Part shown: positions 891-32,329 of the stretch, in pieces | Numbering within the stretch: position 1 is the stretch's first letter | Layout: each line of letters opens with the position of its first letter | NCBI GenBank assembly: GCA_001983475.1 | Contig: LJHD01000283.1 | Coordinates: 1-32,943, forward strand | Length of the DNA: 32,943 bases | Origin: Candidatus Epulonipiscium fishelsonii | Lineage (GTDB): Bacteria > Bacillota > Clostridia > Lachnospirales > Cellulosilyticaceae | Reading direction: 5' to 3' | Translations under genes and position numbers: made by a program | The notes under the pieces: generated by a model | What the model saw: only the letters and a program-made list of their open reading frames with translations | Database searches by the model: none | What the model was told of the DNA's origin: nothing

Positions 891-2603
891 CTAATATGTC
901 ATATCTCCATATTTTCTAAACCGTTCATATCTCTTATTAACAATTTCGTCATCTGATAACATATCCAGTTCTTGAATTTTTTCAAGTAAATAATTTTTTA
1001 AAATCATAGCTGCAAGATCAGGGTCTTTATGTGCCCCACCTGAAGGTTCTTTTATAATATCATCGATGATACCAAATTTTAAAAGATCTGTTGGTGTTAT
1101 CTTCATAATCTTAGAAGCCTTTTCAGCTAACTTACTGTCTTTCCATAAAATGCTTGCAAACCCTTCGGGCGATAAAATTGAATAAGTAGTATTTTGTTGC
1201 ATAAATACAAAGTCTGCAACACCTAAAGCCAATGCACCACCACTTCCACCTTCACCAATAATTCCTGCTATAATTGGTGTTTTTAGTCTAGACATTTCCA
1301 TAAGATTTCTAGCAATTGCCTCACCTTGACCACGCTCTTCAGCTCCAAGCCCACAATATGCCCCAGGAGTATCAATAAAACAAATAATTGGCCTATGAAA
1401 TTTTTCCGCTTGTTTCATTAATCTAAAAGATTTTCTATATCCTTCTGGATGTGGCATACCAAAGTTATATTCAATATTTTCTTTTGAAGTCTTTCCTTTA
1501 TTTTGAGCAATCACAGTTACAACATTACCTTCAAATTTTCCAATTCCACCAATAATAGCCCTGTCATCTGCAAAAACTCTATCTCCATGTAGCTCTATAA
1601 ATTCATCAAATATATGCTCAATATAAAATTTACTTCTAGGTCTATCTATTTGTCTTGCAATATTAATTTTTTCCCAAGGTGAAATTTCTTTTTCTGGTTC
1701 AATAAGATAGTTCACTTCATTAAAATGGTTTAATTTAGCACTAGGTTTAGCATGCCATTTTAGTAACAGGCCTAAGATTTTTCCAAAATCCTTTCTTTCA
1801 ACAATTTTATCAATCATTCCATGTTCCAATAAAAATTCTGCTTTTTGAAATCCATTAGGAAGCTTTTGGCCTATTGTTTGTTCAATAACACGTGGGCCAG
1901 CAAAGCCAATAAGAGCCTGTGGTTCTGATAAGATTATATCACCAAGCATTGCAAAGCTTGCTGTAACCCCTCCAGTAGTTGGATGAGTTAATACACTGAT
2001 ATATAAAAGTCCTGCATCATCATGTTTAGCTAAAGCTGCACTAGTTTTTGCCATTTGCATAAGGGAAAATATCCCTTCTTGCATTCTTGCTCCGCCTGAT
2101 GCACAAAAAATAATAACAGGAAGTTTGTTTTCTGTTGCATATTCAATTGCACGAGTAATTTTTTCACCAACTACTTCTCCCATGCTCCCCATCATAAATC
2201 TGGAATCCATAACAGCAATTATACAATCATTATTGTTTATTTTTGCCATACCAGTTAAAACTGCTTCTTTTTCACTAGTCCTAACCATATAGCTTTCAAG
2301 TTTAAGGCCATAATCTTTAAAATTCAAAGGATTTTTACTTTCTAAATCTTTATCAAATTCAATAAAACTATCTTTATCCGCAATGTTATTTATCCGCATT
2401 CTTGCAGAAATAGGAAAATATCCCTCACAACTGGTACAAACACCAATTGTATCATCTAAATCTTTTATATAGATGCTTTTTTTGCAATGAGGACATTTTG
2501 CATACATTCCAGCAGGAATTTCAACTTTCTTTTGAGAGTCTTCTGATTGAACATTATCAACTTTGCCATATTTTTTTCTGTTCATTAAACTTTGAAACAT
2601 CAT
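891..2603 (-). CDS. accDA: Acetyl-CoA carboxylase carboxyltransferase, fused beta (AccD) and alpha (AccA)
   Basis: 570 aa ORF. N-terminal zinc ribbon CPHCKKS...CTSCEGY plus AccD core, then SPWEKINIARQIDRPRS and AccA core FGMPHPEGYRKSFRLMKQAEKF. Confidence 0.95.
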   Translation of the reverse strand: MMFQSLMNRKKYGKVDNVQSEDSQKKVEIPAGMYAKCPHCKKSIYIKDLDDTIGVCTSCEGYFPISARMRINNIADKDSFIEFDKDLESKNPLNFKDYGLKLESYMVRTSEKEAVLTGMAKINNNDCIIAVMDSRFMMGSMGEVVGEKITRAIEYATENKLPVIIFCASGGARMQEGIFSLMQMAKTSAALAKHDDAGLLYISVLTHPTTGGVTASFAMLGDIILSEPQALIGFAGPRVIEQTIGQKLPNGFQKAEFLLEHGMIDKIVERKDFGKILGLLLKWHAKPSAKLNHFNEVNYLIEPEKEISPWEKINIARQIDRPRSKFYIEHIFDEFIELHGDRVFADDRAIIGGIGKFEGNVVTVIAQNKGKTSKENIEYNFGMPHPEGYRKSFRLMKQAEKFHRPIICFIDTPGAYCGLGAEERGQGEAIARNLMEMSRLKTPIIAGIIGEGGSGGALALGVADFVFMQQNTTYSILSPEGFASILWKDSKLAEKASKIMKITPTDLLKFGIIDDIIKEPSGGAHKDPDLAAMILKNYLLEKIQELDMLSDDEIVNKRYERFRKYGDMTY

Positions 2604-8643: not shown

Positions 8644-8705
8644 ATAGGATAAGAACCCGACGCCTTACTACATTACTGTAGTAGGTTTCCTTGAACTCTC
8701 CCCCA

Positions 8706-8739
8706 GAACCGTACTTACACCTCTCAATGTATACGGCTC
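8706..8739 (-). ncRNA. Group II intron domain V (intron 1)
   Basis: GAGCCGTATACATTGAGAGGTGTAAGTACGGTTC. Confidence 0.95.
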
Positions 8740-8747
8740 ACCGTCTA

Positions 8748-8816
8748 TCAATCTAGTTCTCCATTGTGTATCTTTCTATGACATTCTACACATAAAGTTA
8801 TAGTTTTTCTTTGCCT
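8748..8816 (-). pseudogene. HNH endonuclease C-terminal remnant of the intron 1 encoded protein
   Basis: Out-of-frame 23 codons read RQRKTITLCVECHRKIHNGELD*, the typical end of group II intron HNH domains. Confidence 0.85.
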
Positions 8817-8857
8817 TTACATCATATACTCTTATTTCTTTTAGGTTTTTATATAAT

Positions 8858-10360
8858 TCATGTATTTTCTTTCTCATGCCATTCACAAACTTCTATCTTT
8901 AATTTTGTGCTTGGGTGCATTTCTATGTCTTTCCAGTTACTACCTGTTTTATTTCTTGCAAAACCTTCATCATAATAATAGCATATTTCAGGTCCATTTT
9001 TAGTCATATACTTTATGCCTAATTTCCCATCTATTGTATATTTATCAAATATTTTCCTTATAGATGTTTTATACTTATGGCCCATAGTTTTGACAAAACT
9101 ATATTTCATAATATAATTATAAGAATTTAGACTATTCACATTCATAGCTAATCTATAATAATTATATAAACTTCTGATTTCTGCATTATAGGTTTTTATT
9201 ATTTCCAAATCGTCATTATTTATTAAATAAGTTCTATGAGTTGGTTCCCATATTTCTTTTCCTTTTTTATTAATAACATTAACAGCGCCATGTTCTTTTA
9301 ATTTTGTTATCCAAGCTTCTTTTGGCATATACACTTTTGTTTGCCCATAAGTTCTTTTTTTTACCGTATCATTTTGTTTTACTCTTTTTATTTCTTGAGA
9401 CCTTACAGTAATTTCATAACCTAAGAATTTAGCCCTATCTTTGCTACTGGTTATTAAAGTTTTTTCCTCTGACAATTCTAGTTCAAGTTTTTCTTTCAAG
9501 AAGTTTTTTATATTCTCTTTTATTTTTTTCGTATCCTCTTTGTTCCCTATTACACCTATTATAAAGGTATCAGCATATCTAACATAGTATAATCTTTTAA
9601 ATTCTGTATCCATAGAATAGTTAATTTTAGTTCTTTCTTTACCCTCTTCAAAGCTTAATCTAACGCCATCCACATATTTATCAAATTCATTTAAGTATAT
9701 GTTTGATAAAATAGGACTTATTATTCCTCCTTGAGGTATTCCAGAGTAAGTGTTATTATACTTCCATTCTTCTAAATATCCTGCTCTAAGAAATTTCCAA
9801 ATCAAATTTATAAATTTTTCATCTTTAATTTTTTTTCTTAAAATATCTATTAATCTATGATGATTAATGTTATCAAAGAAACATTTAATGTCTCCTTTTA
9901 TATACCATTGAGTACCTTTTTGTTTACTTATTTGGTCTATAGCTGTATGACAACTTCTTTTTGGTCTATAACCATGAGAATTTACTGAAAAATTATTTTC
10001 ATATATACTTTCTAGTATACTTCTTATTATTTCTTGAACTATTTTATCATCTATTGACGGTATTCCTAGTAATATTTTCTTTCCATTCTTTTTTGGAATA
10101 TAAACTCCTTGAGCGGGATACGGTTTGTAACTCTCATCTTTAATTTCATTGATTAATTTATCCACTCGCTCTTTCATTCTGTCAATAGAATCTGTATCAC
10201 TTATCATATTTTCTTTAGAACTTAAATTTTTATAAGCAATATAATAAAATTCTTCATTATAGAGATTTCTATATAGCCTTTTAAATTGACAATTTTCCTT
10301 TAATGCTACTTCAGCTAGACTGTTTAAAACAATCATTGGATTTCTCATGTGCACTCGCAC
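8858..10360 (-). CDS. Group II intron encoded RT/maturase with altered catalytic motif (YADT)
   Basis: LGIPSIDDK, GDIKCFFDNINHH, SGIPQGGIISPILSNIYLNEFD, YVRYADTF, X domain THRTYLINNDDLEII...YNYYRLA; truncated at CEWHEKENT*. Confidence 0.95.
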   Translation of the reverse strand: MRVHMRNPMIVLNSLAEVALKENCQFKRLYRNLYNEEFYYIAYKNLSSKENMISDTDSIDRMKERVDKLINEIKDESYKPYPAQGVYIPKKNGKKILLGIPSIDDKIVQEIIRSILESIYENNFSVNSHGYRPKRSCHTAIDQISKQKGTQWYIKGDIKCFFDNINHHRLIDILRKKIKDEKFINLIWKFLRAGYLEEWKYNNTYSGIPQGGIISPILSNIYLNEFDKYVDGVRLSFEEGKERTKINYSMDTEFKRLYYVRYADTFIIGVIGNKEDTKKIKENIKNFLKEKLELELSEEKTLITSSKDRAKFLGYEITVRSQEIKRVKQNDTVKKRTYGQTKVYMPKEAWITKLKEHGAVNVINKKGKEIWEPTHRTYLINNDDLEIIKTYNAEIRSLYNYYRLAMNVNSLNSYNYIMKYSFVKTMGHKYKTSIRKIFDKYTIDGKLGIKYMTKNGPEICYYYDEGFARNKTGSNWKDIEMHPSTKLKIEVCEWHEKENT

Positions 10361-10649
10361 CTTCCTTTTCTTATTTTAAACCGATAGACTAACACCCTTC
10401 GCCATGTACTAGGCTTTCCCCAGCTCAGACTACTATGATGTTTCTGTTACCTTATGAACCTTCATCTTTCTCTACCTATATACGACTATTACCTCGCTTG
10501 TATCAAAGATATATTTAGTTATACTAAAACGTTCCACTTAGGTAATCTCCGTTTAGATTATAATTAATAGCTTTGTATAATGTCGGATAGAACTTTCAAT
10601 CTTTACTACTTATTGTAGTTGAATATCTTGTGGTCTTACTATATGTATA

Positions 10650-10655
10650 GAACTT
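10650..10655 (-). other. Candidate EBS1 of intron 1
   Basis: AAGTTC in the loop of a TATGTATA/TATACATA stem, complementary to the fabK exon end GAACTT. Confidence 0.75.
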
Positions 10656-11000
10656 ACTTATACATATAATCCTGTAAAGCTATTGTAGCTTACTTTAAGA
10701 TACATATCGTTTCACTAGCTTTCGATATGGCAATCGGTCGTACTTCTCGATTTATTCTTCACGCAATCCAGCATTTATCCTCGTTTATACTTCTTACTTC
10801 GGCTCTCAGTCTTAACTTTAGCTATTTAGTTAACTTGAGCCTTTATATAACCATGCTACACTCTCCCATTTTCCTTTCGGTCAGGGATAAGGTTATTAGT
10901 AATAGGAGTATTGATTTAGACCTTTCTCCTAGTGTATTGCCATCTACACAATTAACTATAATCCTCGATAAGTTATAACAAGCTTATCTTACGGACGCAC

Positions 11001-21695: not shown

Positions 21696-21715
21696 TGTTC
21701 TTCACTTCCTTCTTA

Positions 21716-21771
21716 CTAAACAAGCCATAAAGCCCCTAGCTTTAGCTATGGGGATATACGGCTATTTAAGA
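21716..21771 (+). repeat. Solo IS605-type right-end-like hairpin, near-identical copy inside intron 2
   Basis: ttactaaacaagccataaagcccctagctttagctatggggatatacggctatttaag; copy at 28826..28884. Confidence 0.7.
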
Positions 21772-28552: not shown

Positions 28553-28651
28553 CTATTTTTTGCATTCTGCAGAATTTGTGCTAGAAGAGTTTATTCTATT
28601 TTCTAATTCTTTTTTCAAATCTTCATATCCAGATTTACCTAAAAGTGCAAA
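28553..28651 (-). CDS. pgi: Glucose-6-phosphate isomerase, exon 2 (C-terminal 32 residues)
   Basis: FALLGKSGYEDLKKELENRINSSSTNSAECKK*, the expected Pgi C-terminal continuation after YKRNM. Confidence 0.93.
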   Translation of the reverse strand, partial: FALLGKSGYEDLKKELENRINSSSTNSAECKK

Positions 28652-28709
28652 GTAGGATAAGCATTCAACGCCTTACTATATCTAGCAGGTTTTCAAATAC
28701 TCTCCCCAA

Positions 28710-28743
28710 GAACCGTACGTACACCTCTCAGCGTATACGGCTC
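28710..28743 (-). ncRNA. Group II intron domain V (intron 2)
   Basis: GAGCCGTATACGCTGAGAGGTGTACGTACGGTTC. Confidence 0.96.
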
Positions 28744-28825
28744 ACAATCTATCAATCTGTATTGCCATTGTGTAAATGTTACCTTCATGCTATAAGTTGG
28801 TGACACGAGCTTTAAATAAAGATTT

Positions 28826-28884
28826 AATAGCCTTATATCCCCATAAGCTAAAGCTAGGGGCTTTACGGCTTGTTTAGTAAAAGT
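28826..28884 (-). repeat. Solo IS605-type right-end-like hairpin inside intron 2
   Basis: Minus: tactaaacaagccgtaaagcccctagctttagcttatggggatataaggctatta; matches 21716..21771. Confidence 0.7.
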
Positions 28885-28991
28885 ACTTTGAAATAGTAGC
28901 AACTAAATTTTATTATAGTAAGGAACCATAACAGCAGCTCTCCCTTTGAAAGTTGTGTACTTTTTTATTCATGATAGAGAAACCAAAAATT

Positions 28992-30383
28992 TTATAGATT
29001 TGGTTGATTATCTATTTCTTCATCACTTTTTTTTAAATTTCTTTTAAACCCTTCATTATAAAAATAATATATTTTTGTACCTTTTTTTGTTTCATATCGA
29101 ATTGCTAAATTTCCATCAATATTAAACTTTTGTATTATTTTTGGTACTGATGTTTTATATTTATTTCCCAACGTCTTAATAAAACTATATCGCATTATAT
29201 GGTAAAATTTATTTAATACACTTACATCTTTGGCCAATCTATAATAATTATATAGACCTTTTATTTCAGCATTATATCTTTTAAATATCGCTAAATCATC
29301 ATTATCTTTTAGATAGGTCCTATGGCAAGAAACCCATTCTTCTTTCCCATTTTTCATTACAATTTTTAAAGCATTATATTCTTTTAATTTTTTTATCCAA
29401 ATTTCTTGTGGAACTCTTAAAACAACACTTTTTTGTAATTTTTTATTGTCCATTTTATACAATGCAGCTTTTGACGAATTTTCTACACTAATATTATATC
29501 CTAAAAATCTAACTTTATTTTCAGCATAAGTAATAAAAGTTTTTTCTTCTGATAGTTCTAGTTTAAGATTATTTTCTAAATATATTTTTAAATTGCTTTT
29601 AATTGCTTTAGCATCTTCTTTGCTTCCTATAATACCTATCAAAAAGCTATTTGCATATCTAGTATAACTTATTCGTTGCTCTAGGTTTACTTTATTAATA
29701 TATTCTTCCACATATTTATCAAATTCATTTAAATAAATGTTAGCTAATATAGAACTAATTATTCCGCCTTTTGGACTTCCAGAATAAGTTTTATTAAATA
29801 CCCAATCTTCTAAATATCCTGCTTTTATAAATTTCCAAATAAGATTTATAAATTTTTCATCTTTAATAGTTTTTCTCAGAATATTTATTAGTATATGATG
29901 GTCCAGATTATAAAATTTAATATTACCATCTAAATACCACTTTACTCCATTGTAATTTGAAATTTGTTGTAATGCTGTATGACAAGTTCTTTTCACTCTA
30001 AAGCTATGAGAACTATTTGAAAACTTTCTTTCATATATTGCTTCTAATAAACTTCTTATTATTTCTTGTATCAATCTGTCCTCTAGTAAATATATTCCAG
30101 ATGATTTTTTCACTAAACTTGGTTGATAACTTTCAGCTCTCATCTTTTCAATCAAGTTTTCAATCGCAACATCTATATCTTCTGCTGCATTGCCTTCTTT
30201 ATTAAGTTTATATGCCATATAATAGAATTCTTTATTGTAAAAATTTCTATATAATCTTTCATAATGATAATTTTCTTTTAATGCTTCTTTTTCCAGACTG
30301 TCTAATACTGCCTTTGGAGTTCTAATGTGCCTCACGCACCTTCCTAATTTTGTATTGACTGATAGACTATTCCCCTTCGCCAT
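28992..30383 (-). CDS. Degenerate group II intron RT/maturase
   Basis: Homologous to the intron 1 protein; GNIKFYNLDHH, SGSPKGGIISSILANIYLNEFD, YTRYANSF; X domain CHRTYLKDNDDLAIFKRYNAEIKGLYNYYRLA. Real start probably GTG inside the ORF. Confidence 0.92.
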   Translation of the reverse strand: MAKGNSLSVNTKLGRCVRHIRTPKAVLDSLEKEALKENYHYERLYRNFYNKEFYYMAYKLNKEGNAAEDIDVAIENLIEKMRAESYQPSLVKKSSGIYLLEDRLIQEIIRSLLEAIYERKFSNSSHSFRVKRTCHTALQQISNYNGVKWYLDGNIKFYNLDHHILINILRKTIKDEKFINLIWKFIKAGYLEDWVFNKTYSGSPKGGIISSILANIYLNEFDKYVEEYINKVNLEQRISYTRYANSFLIGIIGSKEDAKAIKSNLKIYLENNLKLELSEEKTFITYAENKVRFLGYNISVENSSKAALYKMDNKKLQKSVVLRVPQEIWIKKLKEYNALKIVMKNGKEEWVSCHRTYLKDNDDLAIFKRYNAEIKGLYNYYRLAKDVSVLNKFYHIMRYSFIKTLGNKYKTSVPKIIQKFNIDGNLAIRYETKKGTKIYYFYNEGFKRNLKKSDEEIDNQPNL

Positions 30384-30647
30384 GTACCAAGTTTTCCTTG
30401 GCTCGGACTACTATGGGAATTCCGTTACCATATCACCCTTCATTTCTCTCAACATATATAAAGAAATTACCCAATTTGTATCAGAAATATATCTATAATA
30501 GAATGTGTGACTTAGGCAATCACAGTTTAGTATAAAATAACTTGCTATTCATTGTAATGTCGGATAGAACTTTCAACCTTTTCTGCTATTGCAGCTAGAC
30601 GTTTTGTGACACTAATTAGCTTGGTTATCTAATTTTATATAATCTCA

Positions 30648-30653
30648 AATATG
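30648..30653 (-). other. Candidate EBS1 of intron 2
   Basis: CATATT in the loop of a TATAATCT/AGATTATA stem, complementary to the pgi exon end AATATG. Confidence 0.75.
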
Positions 30654-30980
30654 TTATAGATTATATACAAAACGTGTATCGTTTCAATGGCTTTCGATAC
30701 AAGGAAACTTAACCTTCTTCAGTCTATTCTTCACGCAGTTTAGCATTTATCCTCGTTTACAATTTTTACCTTGCCATTCAGTCGTGACTTTACCATTAAT
30801 CAACTTATGACTTTATAACCATGCTACACTCCCCCATTCTTTTCAGTTTGGGATAAGGTTATTGGTAACAAGAGCATTACTTCTAGTGTCTCTCTCTTGA
30901 GGTGTTGCAATTCACCTATTTATTTTTATACCACGATAAACTTTAACAAATTATGCTACAAGCTTATCTGACTGTCGCAC

Positions 30981-32258
30981 CATATTGCGTTTATATTCTT
31001 CAACTCCTGGTTGATCAAATGGGTTTACTCTTAGAAGATATCCACTTATACCACAAGCTTTTTCAAAGAAATAAACTAATTTTCCAAAAGTAAATGCATC
31101 TAGTTGTTCTATATTTATTACGATATTTGGTACCCCACCATCAACATGAGCTAATAAAGTTCCTTCAAAGGCTTTTTTATTTACAAAGTCCATTGTTTTT
31201 CCAGCAAGATAATTTAATCCATCTAAATCATTTTCTGCTGCTTCAAGAGTACGTTCGAATTTGGGTTTTTTAACATTTAAAATTGTTTCAAATATAAAAC
31301 GTCCACCATCTTGAATATATTGTCCAATTGAATGTAAATCTGTTGAAAAATTGGCTGAAGCTGGGAAAATTCCTTTTTTATCTTTTCCTTCACTTTCCGC
31401 ATAAAGTTGTTTCCACCATTCTGCGAAATATTGCAAACAAGGTTCATAGTTAACTATGATTTCAGTATTTTTGTTTTTAGCTAATAGTATATTTCTTATG
31501 ATAGCATATTTATAAGCTGGATTTTCACAAACATCGTCTGTACCATATTCTGTACGACCTTCAGCTGCACCTGCCATTAACTCATCAATGTTAATTCCTG
31601 CAGCTGCAATTGGTAAAAGACCAACAGCTGTAAGAACAGAGAAACGACCACCAACATCATCAGGAATAATAAAAGTTTCATATCCTTCATTTTTTGCCAT
31701 AGTTAATAAAGCACCTCTTGCTTTATCAGTAGTAGCAAATATACGATTTTTTGCTTCTTCTTTACCATATTTGTCTTCAAGATATTTTTTAAACACTCTA
31801 AAAGCAATAGCTGGCTCAGTAGTAGTTCCTGATTTTGAAATTACATTTACACTTATATCTTTGCCTTTACATACATCTAATAGGTTTTCCATATAAGTGC
31901 TTGAAATATTGTTTCCAACAAAATATATTTCTGGTGTTTTTCTTTGCTCCTTTGTCAAGGAATTATAAAATTGATGTGTTAAAGCTTCTATACAAGCTCT
32001 TGCTCCAAGGTATGATCCACCTATTCCTATAACAATCAGCACATCACTGTTTTGTTGTATTTTTTCAGCTGCTTTTTTTATTCTATAAAACTCTTCTTTG
32101 TCATAATTTACTGGTAAATCAATCCATCCCAAGAAGTCTGAACCTGCACCTGTTTTTTCATTTAACATTTGATGTGCTAACTTTACTGAAGGTATGATAT
32201 TTTGGATCTCTTTGCAACCAACACCTGCATTTGAAAAATCAATTCCTATATTGCTCAT
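30981..32258 (-). CDS. pgi: Glucose-6-phosphate isomerase, exon 1
   Basis: [12 protein letters not shown]...[17 protein letters not shown]...[14 protein letters not shown]...GVEEYKRNM, then the intron boundary; start refined to 32258 after AGGTGAGG. Confidence 0.96.
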
Positions 32259-32329
32259 TTTTTCTAAACACCTCACCTTTTAATTTAAGACAATAAGCTT
32301 CTTGCTTACTGTTTAGAACAAATAAATTA

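Follow-up and report, generated by a model that had tools for sequence, protein, structure and literature searches.

In Candidatus Epulonipiscium fishelsonii, a group IIA/ML intron splits the glucose-6-phosphate isomerase gene (pgi), and the open reading frame of this intron very probably encodes a splicing-only maturase, dead as a reverse transcriptase (RT). The intron lies on the minus strand of the window, the whole 32,943-nucleotide stretch analyzed here, which belongs to a draft genome of 316 contigs that is 76% complete (contig C283). The intron-encoded protein (IEP) has lost the RT catalytic residues, while its frame remains open and its X domain is kept. It has neither the motif A Asp and YADD of a competent RT nor the endonuclease (D/En) of the ML class. 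The features of pgi and its intron are as follows.

28553..28651, minus strand: downstream exon of pgi, beginning FALLGKSGYEDLKKELENRIN, with a 3' extension
28652..30980, minus strand: group IIA/ML intron in pgi, 2329 nt, from an RF00029 match at its 3' end and an exact in-frame junction
30980 and 28652, minus strand: intron ends, 5' GTGCGAC and 3' TTATCCTAC, respectively
28652..28745, minus strand: intron domains V and VI (RF00029, 58.4 bits)
28752..28778, minus strand: fossilized end of the endonuclease, HLHNGNTD*, immediately ahead of domain V (its C-terminus in intact relatives reads LHNGKLD*)
28800..28926, minus strand: two dispersed genomic repeats in the former D/En region, with about 40 further genomic occurrences
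28992..30383, minus strand: ORF of the putative RT-dead maturase, 463 aa (Pfam RVT_1 and Intron_maturas2)
29043..29489 (approximate limits), minus strand: X/thumb (maturase) domain with NYY motif (Intron_maturas2)
29646..29657, minus strand: motif C remnant YANS, replacing YADD
29916..29927, minus strand: what remains of motif A, GNIK, with Asn in place of the catalytic Asp and two residues deleted after it, from alignment with 20 intact ML proteins
30648..30653, minus strand: EBS1, CATATT, with the delta A just before it; 6/6 Watson-Crick pairs with IBS1, and delta A pairs with exon T
30981..30986, minus strand: IBS1, AATATG, the final six bases of the upstream exon
30981..32258, minus strand: upstream exon of pgi (NF010697, glucose-6-phosphate isomerase, 705 bits), beginning MSNIG

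The intron sits near the 3' end of pgi, and its junction is exact: excising GTGCGAC...TTATCCTAC fuses ...EEYKRNM with FALLGKSGYEDLKKELENRIN... in frame. Upstream, the exon frame runs on to a GTG at 32276. The downstream exon is identical in 21 of 21 residues to that of an intronless congener (G013), with three synonymous changes in 63 nt; since only synonymous changes have accumulated, the PGI made from the spliced product still appears to be under selection. The GTGCGAC start, domains V and VI, and conserved blocks common to six introns place the intron in the IIA/ML type. Its protein likewise clusters with ML proteins, and LtrA is its top match in the PDB. The PGI of this genome also carries a C-terminal extension, SSSTNSAECKK (28553-28588), while that of the congener ends after NK. 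The repeats within the intron belong to two short families of about 80 and 45 bases, with copies in the window at 28800-28926 and 21713-21769. One family has an inverted-repeat core, CCCCTAGCTTTAGCTTATGGGG, which we take to recall the ends of IS200/IS605 elements.

Aligning the pgi IEP to 20 intact ML proteins of other bacteria shows what it has lost. All three catalytic Asp residues are absent (GDIK to GNIK, YADD to YANS), motif B reads PKGG instead of PQGG, and the RT-4a insertion is missing, with 59 codons gone. The D/En domain is nearly erased, with 1 of 17 invariant positions remaining. The protein still aligns over RT1-7 and retains 71% of otherwise invariant positions in RT1-4, 88% in RT5-7, and 77% in X. 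RT5-7 is thus preserved as well as X, which indicates that the RT scaffold still matters. The match to TIGR04416 reaches 182 bits, far under the cut-off of 300. Predicted structures of the IEP, modeled by itself and together with three relatives, had mean pLDDT values of 33 and 40 and were set aside, and a scan of viral contigs found no relative. The first-pass annotation of this DNA had already described GNIK, PKGG, a deletion of the segment YIPKKNGKK..LGIPS, a frame open over more than 460 codons, and a conserved thumb/X region. All of these are borne out, the deleted segment appearing in the alignment as loss of the RT-1 motif. That annotation had also set YANS against a YADD in the protein of a first intron in the window, which it used as its standard of comparison. 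YANS is present, but the other protein reads YADT and is itself degenerate, with an endonuclease truncated and out of frame, so it was dropped as an intact reference. This other intron interrupts fabK.

8644..11000, minus strand: ML intron in fabK, 2357 nt (RF00029), with an exact junction joining GHIGEL to TTMVIV and FabK exons matching TIGR03151
8748..8795, minus strand: out-of-frame endonuclease remnant, LCVECHRKIHNGELD*
8858..10360, minus strand: IEP with YADT and a truncated endonuclease

Both IEPs of the window are degenerate and differ in degree. They are about 50% identical. The endonuclease of the fabK protein breaks off at CEWHEKENT*, the out-of-frame remnant lying further down, and the protein retains parts of RT-4a that are absent from the other ML IEPs of the family. 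As read from the exon junctions, splicing would give full-length PGI and FabK.

These losses are not confined to the window. A survey of 24 genomes of the family yielded five ML-type IEPs: those in pgi and fabK, two in thyA (G010 and G022), and one in mutS (G014, locus L009). For the last, miaB was rejected as the interrupted gene, being the upstream neighbor of mutS. The two thyA introns come from different genera and occupy the same site. YADD is kept in none of the five, which read YANS, YADT, YADN, YADK, and YKNK, whereas both Asp residues are kept in all but one of about 47 ML IEPs sampled elsewhere (Fisher p ~2.6e-6); those that keep them are the 20 intact proteins plus 26 loci of ML type in other Lachnospirales families, a few being near-duplicates or cut by contig ends. 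Non-ML classes of IEP within the family mostly keep YADD. Recurrence of the losses, with open frames, in independent genomes led to assembly error being dropped as their cause. In the protein tree, the five family ML IEPs stand apart from the remaining 21 proteins, a split that is moderately supported (97/75), and the mutS IEP forms a long branch. A sixth degenerate ML IEP, with YADT and no endonuclease, lies in dinB in another Clostridia family (L041). It nests inside the intact set, which indicates that its functions were lost separately.

The remnants themselves suggest how the losses arose. Of the endonuclease, the pgi intron keeps only HLHNGNTD* before domain V, with repeats between, while fabK has its out-of-frame remnant; the thyA protein of G022 terminates ..MLD*, perhaps the fused last residues of the endonuclease. 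Because these fossils are unlike one another and only fabK has parts of RT-4a, several separate losses are favored over one. A single shared loss of the endonuclease and RT-4a is disfavored by the fabK remnants of both and by the fossil that pgi has of its own. It is also possible that RT function was lost in common and that trimming then proceeded separately. The mutS IEP has 41-42% of invariant RT positions left versus 77% of those in X. Among these relatives, it alone has lost the palm in the manner of MatK while retaining X.

Distribution among relatives is patchy. Neither the pgi nor the fabK intron is present in the congener, whose PGI and FabK are 94% and 92% identical to those of this genome, or in any other family genome that covers the sites. 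Four other genomes in the genus of G010 lack the thyA intron. The fourfold-site distance between this genome and its congener is 0.28, yet the IEPs have diverged strongly from each other, with dS saturated. Either the introns are old and have often been lost cleanly, or already diverged introns arrived separately.

The ribozyme is intact. All six introns can be aligned in domain V and in their conserved 5' blocks, domain VI being shorter in the thyA intron of G022 and in mutS. A scan finds EBS1-IBS1 pairing at 6/6 positions in four introns (pgi, fabK, and the two in thyA), and the pairing can be read from the alignment in mutS (ATGTTT with AAACAT) and dinB (AGTTGG with CCAACT). EBS2-IBS2 forms 5/6 pairs in pgi and is not resolved in the other introns. 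Where the exons at the two thyA introns differ by two synonymous substitutions (ATC GCT to ATT GCA), EBS1 has changed at two matching positions, from AGCGAT to TGCAAT. Continued splicing in place would predict such covariation, although separate insertions would match too.

Open frames, low dN/dS, retention of X and RT-0, a preserved ribozyme with its EBS1-IBS1 pairing, and a conserved exon together are best read as selection for splicing without RT, as the first-pass annotation had proposed. The model is as follows. The pgi pre-mRNA is interrupted by the intron, whose removal would be needed for full-length PGI. The IEP would be translated from within domain IV and would probably bind the intron that encodes it, by way of RT-0, X/thumb, and what is left of the RT fold. 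Bound in this way, it would stabilize the ribozyme and promote its splicing, which is presumably maturase-dependent, with EBS1 and delta choosing the exon junctions. Reverse transcription and cleavage of target DNA are probably gone: with the catalytic Asp residues, the RT-1 motif, RT-4a, and D/En lost, the intron should be unable to retrohome by itself and would persist because the host gene needs splicing. Splicing without RT is possible, since RT active-site mutants splice elsewhere. The YAHH mutant of the RmInt1 IEP has 0.3% RT activity with normal splicing and lariat formation, while its X-domain mutant YYAA does not splice, and both RT and maturase residues contact the intron RNA (PMC5037169). 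A YAAA mutant likewise serves as the RT-dead control in splicing assays (PMC12590461).

It is unlikely that the pgi intron is instead a recent insertion, with an IEP decaying to a pseudogene and splicing carried out by the ribozyme alone or by other factors. Its absence from so close a congener would allow it to be young, and measured dN/dS may be dominated by evolution that predates RT loss. Relative to the intact set, however, there are seven deletions in the pgi IEP and 37 over the six degenerate IEPs, all with open frames, while intact ML proteins have no deletions in RT motifs. The in-frame character of the deletions is partly circular, being read from open frames, so that the evidence lies in the frames remaining open. 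When drift was simulated in the absence of selection, about 6 stops arose at 0.05 substitutions per site and about 15 at 0.14, and none of 400 runs at 0.14 stayed open; in DNA as AT-rich as this, drift should introduce stops fast. The pgi protein has nonetheless kept 463 open codons despite its deletions and its three lost Asp residues, and the same pattern recurs at separate sites. The caveat that constraint may predate RT loss is best answered by the mutS IEP, which holds X after its palm has gone: its end branch measures 2.4 in RT versus 0.58 in X. The degenerate proteins also keep NYY (TYY in mutS) and most of RT-0. The first-pass annotation had expected an X domain under purifying selection and a relaxed palm. 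This contrast shows up weakly. For the thyA pair, omega is 0.046 in RT and 0.040 in X, with dS saturated and part of the constraint possibly predating RT loss, and the RT/X rate ratio is modestly raised in degenerate IEPs (one-sided p=0.012, on branches that are not fully independent). The RT scaffold is thus not clearly relaxed, and the RT fold may still have some residual role.

Two further accounts keep the protein functional but widen its role, and both are less probable still. The intron could remain mobile with RT supplied in trans by another element, its own IEP providing splicing, reverse splicing, and target recognition. The patchy pgi, fabK, and thyA introns suggest gain or loss since the species split, and the genome encodes two other group II IEPs with YADD. 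This account is very improbable, as those two belong to other classes (38-39% identical along part of their length), one of them lacks the motif A Asp, the draft genome yielded no intact ML IEP, and D/En is lost too. It is hardly to be expected that the IEP has become a general maturase like MatK, acting additionally or chiefly on other introns in the genome, ORF-less ones among them. Domain V matches do outnumber IEPs, 12 to 4 in this genome and 3 to one degenerate IEP in G022, and an ORF-less intron occurs in a histidine kinase gene of G022. Against this, the ORF-less introns examined differ in domain V (GAACGCCGTATGAGG versus GTGAGCCGTATAC) and carry fragments of another endonuclease family, and the assemblies behind the counts are incomplete. 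A splicing-only maturase acting on its own intron remains the preferred reading of the pgi protein.

A comparison with known systems shows both precedent and difference. Ll.LtrB with its protein LtrA (PDB 5g2x, ML) is the closest solved relative (E 1.5e-83) and has the ribozyme type and exon recognition by EBS1 and delta in common with the pgi intron. LtrA, however, has GDIK, YADD, RT-4a, and D/En and is mobile, while the pgi IEP lacks all of these. Intact ML introns on Priestia, Cytobacillus, and Metabacillus plasmids encode proteins about 48-50% identical to the pgi IEP over most of its length; unlike it, the IEPs sampled from these genera are complete in active site and endonuclease. MatK, the maturase of the chloroplast trnK intron (IIA), and the degenerate IEPs of plant mitochondria resemble the pgi IEP in having lost RT and kept X, in residing in introns of housekeeping genes, and in their presumed loss of mobility (PMC4424553). 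The likeness to MatK-type maturases drawn in the first-pass annotation therefore holds for lost RT function and retained X, but not for the extent of reduction. RT motifs 0-4 of MatK are unalignable and it serves several introns, whereas the pgi IEP is less reduced because its RT scaffold is also conserved; the mutS IEP is the nearer parallel. Nor is the pattern as unusual for a bacterium as that annotation implied, since other introns of the family share it and the Oceanobacillus iheyensis radC intron O.i.I2, described in 2015 as the sole degenerate IEP known from bacteria, is a precedent (PMC4424553). O.i.I2, compared here by description, is bacterial, of ML class, and without YADD and other motifs, yet it has an open frame, interrupts a host gene, and has an inferred maturase function. 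It is a single case, while here at least five IEPs in one family and one elsewhere (pgi, fabK, thyA, mutS, dinB) form a graded set. The RT-dead maturase is thus a known kind, from organelles and O.i.I2, and its recurrence within one bacterial family is the interesting part. A search of the open-access literature found no paper on Epulopiscium group II introns.

The transition from a mobile group II intron to a host-dependent, splicing-only one is usually inferred from organelles and in models of spliceosome origin. The pgi intron parallels the path seen in chloroplasts and plant mitochondria, as do at least five relatives. With at least five graded degenerate IEPs in one family, intact relatives elsewhere, a thyA site shared by two genera, and intronless relatives, this transition could be studied in bacteria, and the graded IEPs would show which parts of the RT a maturase needs. 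More tentatively, the housekeeping-gene introns of the Epulopiscium family as a whole may be undergoing an organelle-like reduction, in which endonuclease and RT are lost repeatedly and separately, IEPs shrink (the mutS palm is nearly gone), ORF-less introns exist alongside, and maturases possibly serve other introns.

A second, non-ML lineage of IEPs in the family also has active-site losses. Its member in a pcrA/uvrD-like helicase gene (L003, G000:C242) reads GNFK at motif A, is missing residues ahead of PQGG, and lacks the endonuclease, while a close relative (L039/L196, G009:C52) reads YAND and keeps the endonuclease. The genome holding the window has its twelve domain V matches but few IEPs (contigs C242, C290, C246, C103, C72, C225, and C251; L004, L097-L102). 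Several of these matches lie in or beside housekeeping genes (helicase, two; DNA replication protein, three; gyrB/parE-like; def), and some may be tandem introns or twintrons. In G022, whose single IEP found is of the degenerate ML type, the ORF-less intron of the histidine kinase gene (L092, G022:C86, ~1180-2560, minus strand) carries an endonuclease fragment only. The dinB intron (L041/L105, G112:C1) interrupts the gene for DNA polymerase IV in a complete single-contig genome, and its protein, which reads AQGPG besides YADT, is perhaps the easiest of the degenerate IEPs to test.
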